DNA of 64,000 bases from positions 496,001 to 560,000 of the forward strand of contig NZ_CP034444.1 of NCBI RefSeq assembly GCF_003952385.1, read 5' to 3'. A model generated the notes under the pieces. The model saw only the letters and a program-made list of their open reading frames with translations. It was not told the DNA's origin and did no database searches. This DNA comes from Mesorhizobium sp. M1D.F.Ca.ET.043.01.1.1. Its GTDB lineage: Bacteria > Pseudomonadota > Alphaproteobacteria > Rhizobiales > Rhizobiaceae. Both the position numbers and the translations under genes were made by a program. Shown here in pieces: positions 5,003-41,748 of this stretch; within the stretch, counting starts at the first letter, position 1, and each line of letters begins with the position of its first letter.

Positions 5003-6136
5003 TCAAGTGGCCCAGCTTTTGGCGAAGGCATTGGTGAAGACGACCTCGCCGTGGTCTCCAGCCGCCTCACCCAGGACCACGTCCATGTGGCCATCGGTCA
5101 CGCGCGCCAGCGCGAACCCGCCCATATAGGCGGCTTTCGGCTTGACGAGATCGAGCCCGTCGCGCTGGTAGATCATCGGCACCGCGTGCTGATGGCCGTG
5201 GAAAATCGCGATCACATTGTAGCCCTTCAGCGCGGCGATGAGCGCCTGGCGGTCGGCCTCGGCCCACCAGTGCGGCCGGCCGGCGCCGTCGTCGTCATAG
5301 GTACGCATCACCGGGTCCCAGCGCTCGACCGAGAAGGTGTCCCAGCCATAGTGCTGGAAGAGGATTACCGGGCGGCCGTCACCGGCGCAGGTCGCCAGAT
5401 CCTGCTTCAGCCAGGGCAGGCTGTTCACCGCGCCATGACCGGTATCGCCGGCGAAGCGATGCGTCTGGATGAGATGCAGGCCGCCCCAGTCCCAGGAATA
5501 GCAGTCGGTGTCGACGTCGTAGTTGGTCGCCGGCACCGGCGGCTTGAAGAAGACCCCGGGGCGATGGTTGACCTCGACATAATCGCGCATCTCGCGGCGG
5601 TACCAGTCGACATGGCGCTTCGGTCCATTCTGATCGAGATCGTGATTGCCGAGACCGACATAGACCGGGACATGCACGCGATCGGGGCCGATGCCTTGCT
5701 GGTAGCGCTGGCTGAACTGCAGAAGCTGCGTGCCTTCGCTCGGCTGGGTGATCTGGCCGCCGCCGTCGTCGGTGATGTCGCCGCCGGTGACGAGGCCGAG
5801 CGGCGTGCCGATGCGCCTGCCGGCCGAGCGCAGGCCAGTGGCCGCGCCGTTGATCTCGGCTGGCCACTCCTTGTCGTCGATGGCGTTGAGCGCCGCGACA
5901 TTGCGCAGCAAAGCAGCGTCGGTCTTGCCCTCCTGCTCGCAATGCGGGCTCAGGCCGCTCGCCATGCGGCAGGCATGGACATCGGCGATGAACAGGAAGG
6001 TGGCGTCGATCGGCTGGATGCGCTTTCCGGTCTGGCCGTATGCCTGGCGACCAAAAGCGCCGGCCGCCGCAAATCCCGCCATCCGTGCCAGGACTGCGCG
6101 ACGGGAGATCGAATGGGTTCGGCTGCGATTCATCAT
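5003..6136 (-). CDS. Tat-exported calcineurin-like metallophosphoesterase
   Basis: A 377-residue protein with a twin-arginine signal (SRRAVLARMAGFAAAGAFG, residues 11-29), so it is probably exported folded to the periplasm. Metallophosphoesterase motifs occur in order: FIADVHA (D-x-H), TGGDITDDGG (GD), GLGNHDLD (GNHD), FQHYGWD and FHGHQHA (GHxH). These residues bind two metal ions in the family. The spacing resembles that of large purple-acid-like or cyclic-nucleotide phosphodiesterases. It is divergent from the small secreted protein at 6261. The substrate is unknown. Confidence 0.85.
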   Translation of the reverse strand: MMNRSRTHSISRRAVLARMAGFAAAGAFGRQAYGQTGKRIQPIDATFLFIADVHACRMASGLSPHCEQEGKTDAALLRNVAALNAIDDKEWPAEINGAATGLRSAGRRIGTPLGLVTGGDITDDGGGQITQPSEGTQLLQFSQRYQQGIGPDRVHVPVYVGLGNHDLDQNGPKRHVDWYRREMRDYVEVNHRPGVFFKPPVPATNYDVDTDCYSWDWGGLHLIQTHRFAGDTGHGAVNSLPWLKQDLATCAGDGRPVILFQHYGWDTFSVERWDPVMRTYDDDGAGRPHWWAEADRQALIAALKGYNVIAIFHGHQHAVPMIYQRDGLDLVKPKAAYMGGFALARVTDGHMDVVLGEAAGDHGEVVFTNAFAKSWAT

Positions 6137-34557: not shown

Positions 34558-34588
34558 GGAACCTTTTGCCGGTGGGCGCATCCAATTG
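34558..34588 (+). promoter_or_regulatory. predicted ECF-type promoter of the sigma factor gene
   Basis: GGAACC (34558-34563), 14 bases, then GCATCC and AAT (34578-34586). The same elements at the same spacing occur at 35366-35394 upstream of the DUF4142 gene, and the spacer of both starts TTTyGCC. This matches the -35 (GGAAC) of ECF sigma factors with an unusual -10. It suggests the sigma factor drives its own gene. Confidence 0.7.
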
Positions 34589-34620
34589 CCGGATGCAACT
34601 TGTCGGGAGATCGGGACGCG

Positions 34621-35319
34621 ATGAGAAAGTCCGCACTGCAGGCCGCCGCGATTTCGGCGGCGGAGGCCAGCGACATGGCGCTGGTGCGCCGCGCGGTCGC
34701 CCGGGAAGCGGGCGCCTTCCGCGCAATCATCAAGACGCACAACCAGCGGCTCTACCGCATCGCGCGCGGCGTGGTGCGCAACGACACCGAGGCCGAGGAC
34801 GTCGTACAGGAGGCCTATATGCGGGCGTTCGCCAGCCTCGACGCCTTTCGCGGCGATGCCTCCTTGGCCACCTGGCTGTCGCGGATCGTCATCAACGAGG
34901 CGCTCGGCCGGCTGCGCAAGAAAAAGCGCATGGCGGCGATGCCCGGAAACCCGCAGGCTGAGATCATCCGGTTTCCCCTGACCCCAAGCGACTTGAACCC
35001 TGGCGACGATCCGGAGCGGACGATGGCGCAGCGACAGATCCTGGCGCTTGTCGAACGGGCGACCGACAGCCTTCCCGATGTCTATCGCACCGTGTTCGTC
35101 GCCCGCGTCATCGAGGGCCTGAGCATCGAGGAGACCGCCGACCTGCTCGACGTCAGGCCGCAAACCGTGAAGACCAGGCTGCACCGGGCACGCGCGCTGG
35201 TGCGCAAGGCGCTGGACGACGAGATCGGCCCGGTGCTGCTCGACGCCTTTCCTTTCGCCGGGCGCCGGTGTGAAAGGTTGACGCAAGCGGTGATGAAGAG
35301 GCTGGGGTTCGAGGGCTGA
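34621..35319 (+). CDS. ECF-family RNA polymerase sigma factor
   Basis: A 232-residue sigma-70 protein of ECF type. Region 2 is at about residues 30-100 (FRAIIKTHNQRLYRIARGVV, DTEAEDVVQEAYMRAF) and region 4 at about 140-200 (LPDVYRTVFVARVIEGLSIEETAD, VRPQTVKTRLHRARA). A short C-terminal extension follows. No anti-sigma gene adjoins it, so control may come from elsewhere. The ATG at 34621 is preferred to an upstream TTG. DUF4142 and cupredoxin genes downstream carry the same promoter motif. Confidence 0.93.
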   Translation: MRKSALQAAAISAAEASDMALVRRAVAREAGAFRAIIKTHNQRLYRIARGVVRNDTEAEDVVQEAYMRAFASLDAFRGDASLATWLSRIVINEALGRLRKKKRMAAMPGNPQAEIIRFPLTPSDLNPGDDPERTMAQRQILALVERATDSLPDVYRTVFVARVIEGLSIEETADLLDVRPQTVKTRLHRARALVRKALDDEIGPVLLDAFPFAGRRCERLTQAVMKRLGFEG

Positions 35320-35365
35320 TAGGTCGACGGGACCAGTGCCCGGCTCCCCAGCGTCACGCTTTCCC

Positions 35366-35394
35366 GGAACCTTTCGCCCCTTCCGGCATCCAAT
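35366..35394 (+). promoter_or_regulatory. predicted ECF-type promoter of the DUF4142-cupredoxin operon
   Basis: GGAACC (35366-35371), 14 bases, GCATCCAAT (35386-35394). It is a twin of the site at 34558. The start codon of the DUF4142 gene is 51 bases downstream. Confidence 0.7.
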
Positions 35395-35445
35395 GGCCGT
35401 CAACCCAGACAAGCCCGACGCCTTGCGCCGGGCGAAGGAGATGCC

Positions 35446-35970
35446 ATGTTTATCCGACAGACCGCCGCCCTCGCCGCTTTCCTCCTTGTCAGCGCCGCGC
35501 CGCTGGCCGGCGCCGCCGAAAAGCCCACCGATCCGCAGATCGCCCATATCGCCTACATGGCCGGCACGCTCGACATCGAGGCGGCCAAGCTGGCGATCAA
35601 GACGTCCAAGACCAAGGAGGTCGTCGACTTCGCCAAGGACATGGAGCGCGACCATGAGGCGGTGAACAGCCAGGCGCTCGCCCTAGTGAAGAAGCTGAAC
35701 GTCAAGCCCGAAGACAATGCCACCAGCCAGGCGCTGGCGAAGGCCGCGAAGGAGGAGCGCGCCAAGCTGGCGAAGCTCAAGGGCGCCGCCTTCGACAAGG
35801 CCTATATCGAGAACGAGGTGGCCTATCACAAACAGGTCAACGGCGCGCTCGAGACGCTGCTCATCCCCTCGGCCAGCAATGCCGAGCTGAAGAGCCTGCT
35901 GGAGACAGGGCTGAAGATCTTCCAGGGCCATGAGCAGCATGCCGAACATGTCGCCGGCGCGCTGAAATGA
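35446..35970 (+). CDS. DUF4142 ferritin-like secreted protein
   Basis: A 174-residue protein with a signal peptide (QTAALAAFLLVSAAPLAGA, cut near residue 24) and a four-helix DUF4142 domain (IAHIAYMAGTLDIEAAKLA, KTKEVVDFAKDMERDHEAVN, then two further helices ending GHEQHAEH). The His and Glu residues suggest metal binding, but the function is unknown. Its stop overlaps the next start (ATGA), so it is coupled to the cupredoxin gene. Confidence 0.92.
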   Translation: MFIRQTAALAAFLLVSAAPLAGAAEKPTDPQIAHIAYMAGTLDIEAAKLAIKTSKTKEVVDFAKDMERDHEAVNSQALALVKKLNVKPEDNATSQALAKAAKEERAKLAKLKGAAFDKAYIENEVAYHKQVNGALETLLIPSASNAELKSLLETGLKIFQGHEQHAEHVAGALK

Positions 35971-36281
35971 GGGCGAGCGCGTTATCGCTGCTCAGCTCGC
36001 TGGCGCTGGCGCTCATCGCTTCGCCGGCGCTCGCCGCCACGATCGAGGTGACGATCGACAAGCTGGTCTTCTCGCCGGCGAGCGTCGAAGCAAAGGTCGG
36101 CGACACGATCGAGTGGACGAACAAGGATGCGTTCGTCCACACCGCGACGGTGAAGGGTGGCTGGGAGGTGATGATCCCGCCGAAATCGAAGGGCAGGATC
36201 ACGCTCGGGCAAGCGCGAGCGGTCGACTATTTCTGCCGCTTTCACCCCAACATGAAGGGTCATGTGGAGGTCGCGCCCTGA
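35967..36281 (+). CDS. periplasmic cupredoxin (amicyanin/pseudoazurin-like)
   Basis: A 104-residue protein with a signal peptide (residues 1-23) and a blue-copper domain. Copper ligands are probably the His in AFVHTATV and the Cys, His and Met in YFCRFHPNMKG. It likely carries electrons in the periplasm. It is encoded in one operon with the DUF4142 protein under the predicted ECF promoter, which links it to an envelope or metal stress response. Confidence 0.92.
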   Translation: MRASALSLLSSLALALIASPALAATIEVTIDKLVFSPASVEAKVGDTIEWTNKDAFVHTATVKGGWEVMIPPKSKGRITLGQARAVDYFCRFHPNMKGHVEVAP

Positions 36282-38136: not shown

Positions 38137-38997
38137 ATGCGCTACATACGTCCGCAATCAATGGAAGATGCCGTGGGCCTGCTGGCCGGCGCGGCCGGCC
38201 CGGCAGCCATTCTTGCCGGAGGCAGCGATCTCCTGGTCAGGATGAAGGGCGGCTTTGTCGAGCCCGAGCTGATTGTCGACATCAAGGCGATCGAGGGCCT
38301 AGGCGAAATCACGGAAACGGCCGACGGCTTCAGGATAGGTGCGGCAGTCCCCTGCGCCGTATTGGGCGAGAACGCGGCGCTGAAGAAGGCGTGGCCCGGC
38401 GTCGTCGAGGCGGCCAAGCTGATCGGCTCCAAGCAGGTGCAGGGACGCTGCACCATCGTCGGCAATCTCTGCAACGCCTCCCCCGCCGCCGACAGCGTGC
38501 CGGCGCTGGTGGCCGCCGGCGCCAAGGCGGTTGTCGCCGGGCCATCCGGCAAGCGCACCATTCCTGTCGAGAGCGTGCCGACCGGGCCTGGCCGGACCTC
38601 TTTGGCCAAGGGCGAGATCATCGAGGCGATCCTGCTCGACAAGCGCCCGCCGCATGCGGGCGATGCCTATCAGCGCTTCATCCCGCGCACCGAGATGGAC
38701 ATCGCCGTGGTGAGCGCCGGCGTGGACCTGACGCTCGATGACAAAGGCGTCGTCAAGGCGGCCCGCGTGGCGCTGGGCGCCGCCGCGCCCACGGTGCTGC
38801 TGGTCGAGGAAGCTGCCCAAGTCCTCATTGGCTCGAAGCTCGATGAAGGCACGCTTGAGCGGCTGGCAAAAATCTGCGCCGGCGCCTGCCGTCCCATCGA
38901 CGACAAGCGGGGTACCATCGAATTCAGACGGAAAGTCGCGGGCGTGCTGGCCAGACGGGTCGCAGCAATCGCTTATGAACGTGCAGGAGGCAAGTGA
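38137..38997 (+). CDS. molybdenum hydroxylase, FAD-binding medium subunit (CoxM-like)
   Basis: A 286-residue subunit of the xanthine oxidase family. The N-terminal FAD domain has AILAGGSDLLVRMKGG (residues 27-42), and GRCTIVGNLCNASPAADS is the second FAD-binding loop. It passes electrons from the iron-sulfur subunit to FAD. The ATG at 38137 has AAGGGGAG. It is the first gene of the operon; the next gene overlaps its stop. Confidence 0.93.
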   Translation: MRYIRPQSMEDAVGLLAGAAGPAAILAGGSDLLVRMKGGFVEPELIVDIKAIEGLGEITETADGFRIGAAVPCAVLGENAALKKAWPGVVEAAKLIGSKQVQGRCTIVGNLCNASPAADSVPALVAAGAKAVVAGPSGKRTIPVESVPTGPGRTSLAKGEIIEAILLDKRPPHAGDAYQRFIPRTEMDIAVVSAGVDLTLDDKGVVKAARVALGAAAPTVLLVEEAAQVLIGSKLDEGTLERLAKICAGACRPIDDKRGTIEFRRKVAGVLARRVAAIAYERAGGK

Positions 38998-39473
38998 TGG
39001 CCGGTGTAGCGGTTTCAACGACAATCAACGGCGATCACGTCGAGTATCTCTGCCAGCCTGACGAGACGCTGCTCGACGTGCTGCGCGACCGGCTGGGGCT
39101 GACCGGCGCCAAGGAAGGCTGCGGAACCGGCGACTGCGGCGCCTGCAGCGTCATCGTCGACGACCGGCTGGTGTGCTCCTGCCTGGTGCTGGGCGCGGAG
39201 GCCGAAGGCCGCCAGATCGAGACCATCGAGGGCATGGCGCATGGCGATCAATTGCATCCGCTGCAGCAGAAGTTCCTGGAGCATGCCGCCCTGCAATGCG
39301 GCATCTGCACGCCGGGCTTCCTGATCGCGGCCAAGGACCTTCTGGCGAAGAACCCCTCGCCCACCGAGGAGGAAATCCGCTTCGGGCTGGCCGGCAACCT
39401 CTGCCGCTGCACCGGCTACGACAAGATCGTGCGCGCCGTCCAGGACGCGGCAAACGTGATGAAGGGAGCCTGA
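38997..39473 (+). CDS. molybdenum hydroxylase, [2Fe-2S] small subunit (CoxS-like)
   Basis: A 158-residue iron-sulfur protein. The plant-ferredoxin-type cluster ligands are in [13 protein letters not shown] and a later Cys (LVCSCL), and the second cluster ligands are CGICTPGF and NLCRCTGY. The start ATG overlaps the stop of the medium subunit (TGATG), with AGGAGG before it. The length is normal for the family. Confidence 0.95.
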
Positions 39474-39474
39474 G

Positions 39475-41748
39475 ATGAATTTCGATCCGCGCTATTCCGG
39501 ACGCAATTTCTCTTCCGTCGGCACGCGCCCCATCCGCCCCGACGGCGTCGACAAGGTGACGGGCCGCGCGCGCTACGGCGCCGACTTCAACATGGCCGGA
39601 CAGCTGGTCGGGCGCGTTCTCAGAAGCCCGCATGCGCACGCCGTCATCAGGAAGATCGACACCTCGAAGGCTGAAAAGCTCGCCGGCGTGAAGGCGGTGA
39701 TCACCGCGGCCGACCTGCCGGACCTGACCGACGGCGATGCCGCGATGTTTGACATCCTCGACAACTGCATGGCGCGCACCAAGGCGCTCTATGACGGCCA
39801 CGCGGTGGCCGCGGTCGCGGCGATCGACGCCCGCACCGCCAGGCAGGCGCTGAAGCTGATTGAGGTCGACTACGAGGTGCTGCCGCATGTGACCGATGTC
39901 GACGAGGCGATGAAGCACTCGGCACCGCTGATCAACGACGCCATCTTCACCGAGGGCCTCGAGGAAAAGCCGGTCAAGCCCTCCAACGTCTGCAAGCGCA
40001 CGCAATACGGCCATGGCGACGTCCATCAGGGTTTCGCCCAGGCCGACATGATCATCGAGCGCTCCTTCAAGACCGAGCAGACGCACCAGGGCTATATCGA
40101 GCCGCATGCCTGCGTGGCCAGCGTCAACCCCGACGGCACGGCGGACCTGTGGGTCTGCACGCAAGGGCATTTCGTCTACCGCCAGCACTGCGCGCAACTG
40201 CTTGGGCTGGAAGCCTCGAAGCTGCGCGTCACCTCCTCCGAGATCGGCGGCGGTTTCGGCGGCAAGACCCATGTCTGGGCCGAACCCGTCGCGCTCGCGC
40301 TGTCGCGCAAGGCTGGACGGCCGGTGAAGCTGGTGATGACCCGCGACGAGGTGTTCCGTGCCTCCGGCCCGACCAGCGCCACATCGATCGACGTCAAGAT
40401 CGGCGCCAAAAAGGACGGCACCATCACCGCGGCGGAAGCGACGCTGCGCTATAGCTGCGGCCCCTATGCCGGCATGTGGGCCGAGATCGGCGCCATGACG
40501 GCCTTCGCCTGCTACAGACTGGAGAACGTCAAGACCGTCGGCTATGAGGTGCTGGTCAACCGGCCAAAGACCGCGGCCTATCGCGCGCCCTCCGCACCCA
40601 TGGCGGCCTTCGCGGTGGAAAGCGCGGTCGACGAGCTCGCCAAGGAGATCGGCATCGACCCGGTCGACTTCCGCATCAAGAACGCCGCTCAGGAAGGCAC
40701 GCGCGCTTCCTACGGCCCGGTCTACGGCCCGATCGGCATCGGCCCGACGCTGGAAGCGGTGAAGAACCATCCGCACATGAAGGCGCCGCTGGGCACGAAC
40801 CAGGGGCGCGGCATGGCCTGCGGCTTCTGGTTCAATTTCGGCGGCCAGACCTGCACCGATCTCAACATCGGCATGGACGGCTCGGTCTCTTTGGCCGTCG
40901 GCACGGTGGATGTGGGCGGGTCCCGCGCGTCGCTGTCGCTGGTGGCGGCGGAGGAGCTCGGCATCGACTATGCCCATGTCAAGGCGATCGTCGCCGACAC
41001 CTCTTCCCTCGGTTACAACGACATGACCGACGGCAGCCGCGGCACCTTCTCCTCCTCGATGGCCACCATCTCGGCCGCCCGCAACGCGATCAAGATCCTG
41101 CGCGAACGGGCCGCGCAGATGTGGGACATCTCGGTCGATGACGTTGTGTGGGAAAAGGGCCATGCGGTCGCCAAGGGCGAGAAGCACGGCAATCTCGGCA
41201 AACTGTCACTGAAGGAGATCGCGGCGCAGTCCGGCAAGACGGGCGGGCCGATCGCCGGCCACAGCGAGCTCGTCGCCGACGGCGCGGGCGTGTCCTTCGC
41301 CACCCATATCTGCGACATCGAGGTCGACCCCGAGACCGGCTCGACCAGGGTGATCCGCTACACGGTGGTGCAGGACGCCGGCAAGGCGGTGCACCCGACC
41401 TATGTCGAGGGCCAGTACCAGGGCGGTGCCGCGCAAGGCATCGGCTGGGCGCTCAACGAGGAGTATATCTATGGCAAGGACGGGCGGCTGCAGAACCCGG
41501 GCTTCCTCGACTACCGCATCCCGGTATGCTCCGACCTGCCGATGATCGACACGCAGATCCTCGAGATCCCCAACCCCAACCACCCCTACGGGGTGCGCGG
41601 CGTCGGCGAGACCTCGATCGTGCCGCCGCTGGCGGCGATCGCCAATGCGGTGTCGAACGCGGTCGGCGTGCGCATGAGCCACATCCCGATGTCGCCGCCG
41701 CGGATTCTCGCCGCGCTCGAGGCCGAACGGGAGAGGTTCTCGCGCTAA
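39475..41748 (+). CDS. molybdenum hydroxylase, molybdopterin-binding large subunit
   Basis: A 757-residue catalytic subunit with molybdopterin cytosine dinucleotide. Conserved parts are GRARYGADFNMAGQLVGRVLRSP at the start, GGGFGGKTHVWAE, and GVRGVGETSIVPPLAAIANA with the catalytic Glu near the end. The active-site loop reads AYRAPSAPMAAFAVE, neither the AYxCSFR of true CO dehydrogenase nor the AYRGAGR of common form II enzymes. The substrate is therefore open: probably an aromatic or heterocyclic compound. The next gene starts in its stop codon. Confidence 0.9.
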   Translation: MNFDPRYSGRNFSSVGTRPIRPDGVDKVTGRARYGADFNMAGQLVGRVLRSPHAHAVIRKIDTSKAEKLAGVKAVITAADLPDLTDGDAAMFDILDNCMARTKALYDGHAVAAVAAIDARTARQALKLIEVDYEVLPHVTDVDEAMKHSAPLINDAIFTEGLEEKPVKPSNVCKRTQYGHGDVHQGFAQADMIIERSFKTEQTHQGYIEPHACVASVNPDGTADLWVCTQGHFVYRQHCAQLLGLEASKLRVTSSEIGGGFGGKTHVWAEPVALALSRKAGRPVKLVMTRDEVFRASGPTSATSIDVKIGAKKDGTITAAEATLRYSCGPYAGMWAEIGAMTAFACYRLENVKTVGYEVLVNRPKTAAYRAPSAPMAAFAVESAVDELAKEIGIDPVDFRIKNAAQEGTRASYGPVYGPIGIGPTLEAVKNHPHMKAPLGTNQGRGMACGFWFNFGGQTCTDLNIGMDGSVSLAVGTVDVGGSRASLSLVAAEELGIDYAHVKAIVADTSSLGYNDMTDGSRGTFSSSMATISAARNAIKILRERAAQMWDISVDDVVWEKGHAVAKGEKHGNLGKLSLKEIAAQSGKTGGPIAGHSELVADGAGVSFATHICDIEVDPETGSTRVIRYTVVQDAGKAVHPTYVEGQYQGGAAQGIGWALNEEYIYGKDGRLQNPGFLDYRIPVCSDLPMIDTQILEIPNPNHPYGVRGVGETSIVPPLAAIANAVSNAVGVRMSHIPMSPPRILAALEAERERFSR

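Follow-up and report, generated by a model that had tools for sequence, protein, structure and literature searches.

The stretch of DNA analysed here, which we call the window, comprises 64,000 nucleotides of Mesorhizobium sp. M1D.F.Ca.ET.043.01.1.1 (RefSeq GCF_003952385.1, contig NZ_CP034444.1, positions 496,001 to 560,000 of the forward strand). It holds a gene for an extracytoplasmic function (ECF) sigma factor, followed by genes for a DUF4142 protein and a cupredoxin, and two matching promoter elements, one ahead of the sigma gene and one ahead of the DUF4142-cupredoxin operon (Table 1). This locus is the Mesorhizobium counterpart of the RpoE8 (ECF29) locus of Sinorhizobium meliloti, and an arrangement of this kind is already in print (Lang et al., 2018; PMC6180224). 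Comparisons across genomes, as far as sequences can tell, support a system with paired conserved promoters, a near-obligate partnership between its genes and no widely conserved anti-sigma neighbour. Loci and genomes are referred to by L and G numbers where they need to be told apart.

Table 1. Coordinates of the sigma factor, its presumed output genes and the promoter elements in the window
Feature	Position	Strand	Details
Promoter element 1, upstream of sigma gene (putatively autoregulatory)	34558..34586	+	GGAACC-TTTTGCCGGTGGGC-GCATCCAAT, i.e. GGAACC-N14-GCATCCAAT
ECF sigma factor, 232 aa, ECF29/RpoE8 type	34621..35319	+	NCBIfam PRK11922 (NF008888)
Sigma C-terminal extension, residues 201-232	35221..35316	+	holds the protein's only cysteine, Cys217 (codon 35269-35271)
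Promoter element 2, upstream of DUF4142-cupredoxin operon	35366..35394	+	GGAACC-TTTCGCCCCTTCCG-GCATCCAAT, i.e. GGAACC-N14-GCATCCAAT
DUF4142 protein, 174 aa	35446..35970	+	PF13628, 124.9 bits
Amicyanin-like cupredoxin, 104 aa	35967..36281	+	PF13473 and PF00127; start overlaps DUF4142 stop (ATGA)

Twin promoter elements and the gene trio

Twin elements with an identical 14-base gap had been described in an initial annotation made from the sequence alone, and we find both at the positions given there, on the same strand and with that gap. The base before GGAAC is G in element 1 (GGGAAC) and C in element 2. The loose pattern GGAACC-N12-16-GCATCC has two matches in the window, with 0.08 expected, and none of 100 shuffles contained two or more. 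A genome search with the bare six-base pair, as the initial annotation had suggested, proved uninformative: it returns 8 sites against 8 in a reversed control, which is chance level and would have resembled a refutation. A fuller motif, GGAAC-N-TTTY-N10-GCATCCAA, whose form we derived from the two window sites and two S. meliloti sites (PMC6180224), is specific instead. Across the 7.13 Mb genome its only perfect copies are the two window elements, with no site at one mismatch and four at two; three of these four (all except L064) were inspected, and all three overlap long open reading frames. Allowing up to three mismatches gives 25 sites versus 9 in the control.

The sigma protein has the ECF architecture, with region 2 (PF04542) and region 4 (PF08281) recognized by Pfam and a short tail beyond them. 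It scores 308 bits against NF008888, compared with 323 for RpoE8 and a cut-off of 204, and is the sole match above that cut-off in its own genome; its assignment to ECF29 is made through RpoE8. Among 299 genomes sampled from the phylum, 21 have a PRK11922 match above the cut-off; the 14 control genomes have none.

Read by eye, the DUF4142 protein begins with a signal-peptide-like stretch, and its gene is preceded by GAAGGAG, which resembles a ribosome-binding site. Residues D69, H70, E124, H128 and H162 are invariant in all 21 alignment rows and would suit a metal site; for this protein, which the initial annotation took to be ferritin-like, a search for a solved structural relative found none. 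A single in-frame stop codon interrupts the otherwise conserved DUF4142 sequence of G407, perhaps marking a pseudogene or a sequencing error. In the cupredoxin, the type 1 copper ligands H58, C90, H93 and M96 are invariant (18/18 rows), and the nearest solved structures are amicyanins. Because it misses the NCBIfam amicyanin cut-off, with 36 bits against 110, we call it amicyanin-like only.

Counterparts in S. meliloti and across genomes

We located the S. meliloti locus on pSymB via its published promoter. Lang et al. (2018) describe its gene set and twin motif and note that an anti-sigma factor is missing, so the arrangement in the window is not new in kind (PMC6180224). All three genes and both twin motifs are present there, with 60% identity for the sigma factor (218 residues), 78% for DUF4142 and 54% for the cupredoxin, each over the aligned parts. 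RpoE8 with SMb20593 and AmcY matches the window in the trio of genes and their order, in the twin promoter GGAAC-N15-GCATCCAA, in having no anti-sigma factor and in a C-terminal DAFPFAGxRCERLT stretch common to both sigma factors. The surroundings differ: the S. meliloti locus sits on a plasmid beside acyP, whereas the window locus belongs to a one-contig genome and lies beside a gene for an HPP-CBS protein. The published ECF29 promoter form, with a -35 of GGGAAC and a -10 of GCATCCAA, is found upstream of the window sigma gene and of the gene that follows it. In S. meliloti, two transcription starts were mapped for rpoE8, one of them at the ECF29 motif, and its expression is enhanced in nitrogen-fixing nodules according to earlier transcriptomes (PMC6180224). 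Within the open-licence literature, judged by titles and the beginnings of abstracts, we found no other study of a DUF4142-cupredoxin output of a sigma factor. The name RpoE8 also occurs, 29 times, in an article on Azospirillum brasilense (PMC12826043), where it may stand for a different sigma factor.

The footprint of the motif was followed through 53 of 67 named loci, the other 14 being more distant. The triad of sigma factor, DUF4142 and cupredoxin occurs in 50 of the 53 (L085-L134), which come from Mesorhizobium, Rhizobium, Tardiphaga, Bradyrhizobium, Pleomorphomonas and one metagenome-assembled genome labelled Hyphomicrobiales. Taking GGAAC-N15-GCATCC with at most one mismatch, we find the motif in the 200 bases before the sigma gene in 45 of these 50 loci and between the sigma and DUF4142 genes in 48; the same loci hold 11 other such sites in 1,037,422 strand-bases, both strands counted. 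The spacers vary among the loci and the ends are fixed. That pairs of elements recur across genera with diverged spacers bears out the earlier suggestion that the second twin is not a recent duplicate. An exception is L125 (Mesorhizobium amorphae CCBAU 01570, about 5630-5657), where the sigma match stops at residue 218, DUF4142 follows 26 bases on and the second promoter is absent, as if a deletion had fused the two genes into one operon.

Thirteen further stretches around PRK11922 genes (L239-L251; L242 is the same contig as L135) form a more distant set. Eight of them carry the triad, with the sigma gene first, with DUF4142-cupredoxin first or with the two divergent. Exact GGAACC-N14-GCATCC stands at the head of the sigma gene (L239, L240, L241, L242, L249 and L250) or of its operon (L251) in seven of the thirteen; the motif has one mismatch and a 15-base gap in L243 to L246 and is absent from L247 and L248. 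A gene between sigma and DUF4142 in L239, guessed to encode a multicopper oxidase, turned out to encode a sulfatase.

Consistent with a partnership of the two genes, orthologues of the sigma factor (E up to 1e-60) and of DUF4142 (E up to 1e-30) occupy an identical set of 113 of the 146 genus genomes; G373 has an additional, 48% identical DUF4142 elsewhere in its genome. When 61 relatives were searched with the full motif at up to one mismatch, 75 places in 31 genomes matched, against one match to the reversed control. By comparison of coordinates, the sigma gene has one or more of these sites next to it in 26 of the 28 sigma-bearing genus members among them, and the nine sigma-less members yield three single sites (G009, G018 and G036).

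Immediately around the triad, the three neighbours scanned with Pfam are the HPP-CBS protein, a methyltransferase and a TetR regulator, and none of the three has an anti-sigma domain. Across 18 diverse loci, with overlapping frames of the triad set aside, only the sigma factor, DUF4142 and the cupredoxin recur in all; the next most frequent families, HPP and by our own reading a short-chain dehydrogenase-like gene, reach three loci each. With every family outside the triad limited to three of the 18 loci or fewer, we see no linked anti-sigma factor among them, although fast-evolving small proteins could escape notice. The absence of an adjacent anti-sigma factor, as first annotated, is thus upheld for the scanned neighbours and for these loci. 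Farther along the window, downstream of a TetR gene (38139-41748), the translations of three open reading frames resemble by eye the FAD, 2Fe-2S and molybdopterin subunits of a xanthine/CO dehydrogenase-type enzyme.

The C-terminal extension and other candidate targets

Beyond region 4, the sigma factor continues for about 30 residues, a tail that shows the pattern FPFxGxRC[DE]R. All 67 sequences compared retain Cys217, and any other alignment column has a cysteine in five of them at most. The number of independent sequences is below 67, since L135 and L242 represent one and the same stretch and there may be further repeats, and the 24-row subset treated as far takes in L133, a near relative. 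G214 and C217 are invariant in all 27 rows of an alignment. In a predicted model (mean pLDDT 80, pTM 0.54), a separate helix spans residues 215-227 after a low-confidence hinge at 209-211. The linker contains no cysteine and the whole protein no CXC. In G413, one in-frame stop codon lies within an otherwise conserved sigma sequence, which could again reflect a pseudogene or a sequencing error. ECF29 is tabulated among the groups with regulatory extensions, under 'Others', and such further groups are described as remaining for study (PMC8999054).

The CorE-type, copper-dependent ECF sigma factors (former ECF44) resemble the window protein in lacking an anti-sigma factor, in having a C-terminal extension and in their link to copper genes (PMC8999054), but the window sigma factor differs in its one cysteine and lack of a CXC. 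We rejected CorE-type metal sensing by a cysteine cluster on this count, there being no cysteine-rich C-terminal domain. Another comparison leads to azu2 of S. meliloti, which, going by its name, we take to encode a copper protein. There, sorT-sorU-azu2 are activated by RpoE1/RpoE4 (ECF26), rhizobial ECF sigma factors like that of the window (PMC3511301, PMC6180224); ECF26 promoters, however, read GGAATA/GT, and in S. meliloti all four sigma factors of that group have an anti-sigma partner downstream. The Caulobacter SigF described under copper belongs to a different group (PMC8224329).

We also considered targets outside the triad. All 146 genus genomes hold a PCuAC gene (PF04314), followed by DUF1775 in the relatives that were checked (with Pfam confirmation in one locus, L155). 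As its element we scored the core GGAAC-N16-CATCC, sought in the 200 bases before the gene (loci L181-L210 and L252-L366) in 145 genomes, since the contig of G439 begins at the gene. The core is intact in 79 of these 145, namely 72 of 113 sigma-bearing genomes versus 7 of 32 sigma-less ones (Fisher 3.7e-5); the sites were partly checked by eye, and a few, such as those in G361 and G432, resemble chance matches. A kinship-aware test on 21 edge-disjoint pairs of the PCuAC gene tree gave 6 versus 0 without mismatch (p 0.03), the element being intact on both sides of 5 pairs and on neither side of 10, and 6 versus 1 when one mismatch was allowed (p 0.125). In the Mesorhizobium genome under study (L205, C1:4818944), the element is broken because its -35 reads AAAACC. 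Given this break, and the way the association thins once kinship is considered, we downgraded PCuAC from a firm member of the regulon and regard its element's link to the sigma factor as tentative.

The HPP-CBS neighbour was rejected as a regulon member. An HPP homologue lies in the flank of 43 of the 50 triad loci. One of these, L085, is truncated there; in the other 42, the closest match to the element in the 300 bases before the HPP gene carries 2 to 5 mismatches (3 in the window itself). As an isolated case, G011 has the sigma-type promoter without a mismatch ahead of its HPP-CBS gene (L164, G011:C1:6057934). In G028 (L160) and G022 (L178), a perfect element beside sigma genes adjoins folE, the gene for GTP cyclohydrolase I (PF01227 checked in G028), and faces away from that gene, in the direction of a Rieske-like frame that by eye seems disrupted. 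On the Lysobacteraceae contig L135 (about 4150 and 4863), next to an ECF29 sigma gene, an element faces a Rieske-FAD reductase, and a copy with one mismatch faces folE.

A model for the sigma factor and its output

We think it probable that the locus is an RpoE8/ECF29 unit in which the sigma factor drives both its own gene and the DUF4142-cupredoxin operon, is controlled through its tail, and has a copper or redox output in the periplasm. In such a unit, the sigma factor would direct RNA polymerase to GGAACC-N14-GCATCCAAT at both places, recognizing the second promoter directly, so that once active it would amplify itself and turn on two exported proteins. It may be made in a poorly active form and held under control by the short conserved extension; this tail, with its single invariant cysteine, is the best candidate for a control point. 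In the periplasm, the two output proteins would deal with copper or redox chemistry, the cupredoxin carrying electrons or copper and DUF4142 acting as its partner. Copper or redox is likewise a plausible signal, judging from the nature of the output genes.

Several observations weigh against this model. The DUF4142-cupredoxin pair is missing from 3 of the 53 examined loci, where the sigma factors are 42 to 49% identical, and from 5 of the 13 distant stretches, so the output is not universal. No motif lies near the sigma gene in G016 and G025, the other 2 of the 28 sigma-bearing genus members, or in G044 and G047, both of the sigma-bearing genomes outside the genus in the set of 61 relatives. 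In S. meliloti, 126-fold overexpression of rpoE8 produced no detectable target, SMb20593 included, no transcription start was found upstream of SMb20593, and deletion of rpoE8-SMb20593 raised amcY 3.2-fold in nodules (PMC6180224). A single conserved cysteine, moreover, need not be a sensor. The overexpression result could mean either that the sigma factor needs an activating signal or that its targets are wrongly assigned, and the strict conservation of the promoter and of the gene partnership inclines us to the first reading. Of the initial proposal of one sigma factor with its own promoter and a DUF4142-cupredoxin output, then, the footprint, the co-occurrence and the S. meliloti start at the motif speak strongly in favour; the overexpression without a target speaks against it, and the arrangement itself had already been published.

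Other explanations of these data differ in what they take the sigma factor and the second element to do. If the sigma factor were active once made, control could be exerted only on the transcription of its gene, for instance if another factor used a second promoter, and the extension would be structural. Such control would agree with the two mapped starts of rpoE8, only one of which has the ECF29 motif (PMC6180224), and with the lack of a widely conserved regulator gene beside the sigma gene, but a constitutively active sigma factor should have activated its targets when rpoE8 RNA rose 126-fold, and none responded; we judge this explanation unlikely, if well worth weighing. A different sigma factor might mainly read the second element, or the element might be unused, with the true targets elsewhere. 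SMb20593, for which no upstream start site was found and which rpoE8 overexpression did not induce, fits that idea (PMC6180224), as do the 7 of 32 sigma-less genomes in which the similar PCuAC element is intact, so that another factor may read such elements. Set against these, the genus genomes with the DUF4142 orthologue are exactly those with the sigma factor (113/146), and 48 of the 50 triad loci keep the element that lies between the two genes; we hold this explanation to be quite improbable. That the twins are a chance match or a recent, functionless duplication might be read from the chance frequency of the bare six-base pair genome-wide, but the recurrence of pairs with diverged spacers across genera and the failure of all 100 window shuffles to produce two elements leave almost nothing of it; conservation has already refuted it.

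The model of a tail-controlled unit can be extended, speculatively, to the whole of ECF29 as a group of one-cysteine sensors, in which an oxidant or copper would act on the sole tail cysteine and free an inactive sigma factor. The regulon would be a periplasmic copper/redox kit of cupredoxin and DUF4142, joined in many relatives by PCuAC-DUF1775 and, in Lysobacteraceae and some second copies, by a Rieske-type reductase encoded next to GTP cyclohydrolase I. We doubt that so broad a scheme holds.

To the published arrangement, the present comparison adds the footprint of the motif, the co-occurrence of the sigma factor with DUF4142, the invariant Cys217 and the candidate PCuAC target. Together these narrow the question of the activating signal to a conserved two-promoter output, a near-obligate partner gene and one residue, Cys217, and the candidate further target, PCuAC, points to copper.
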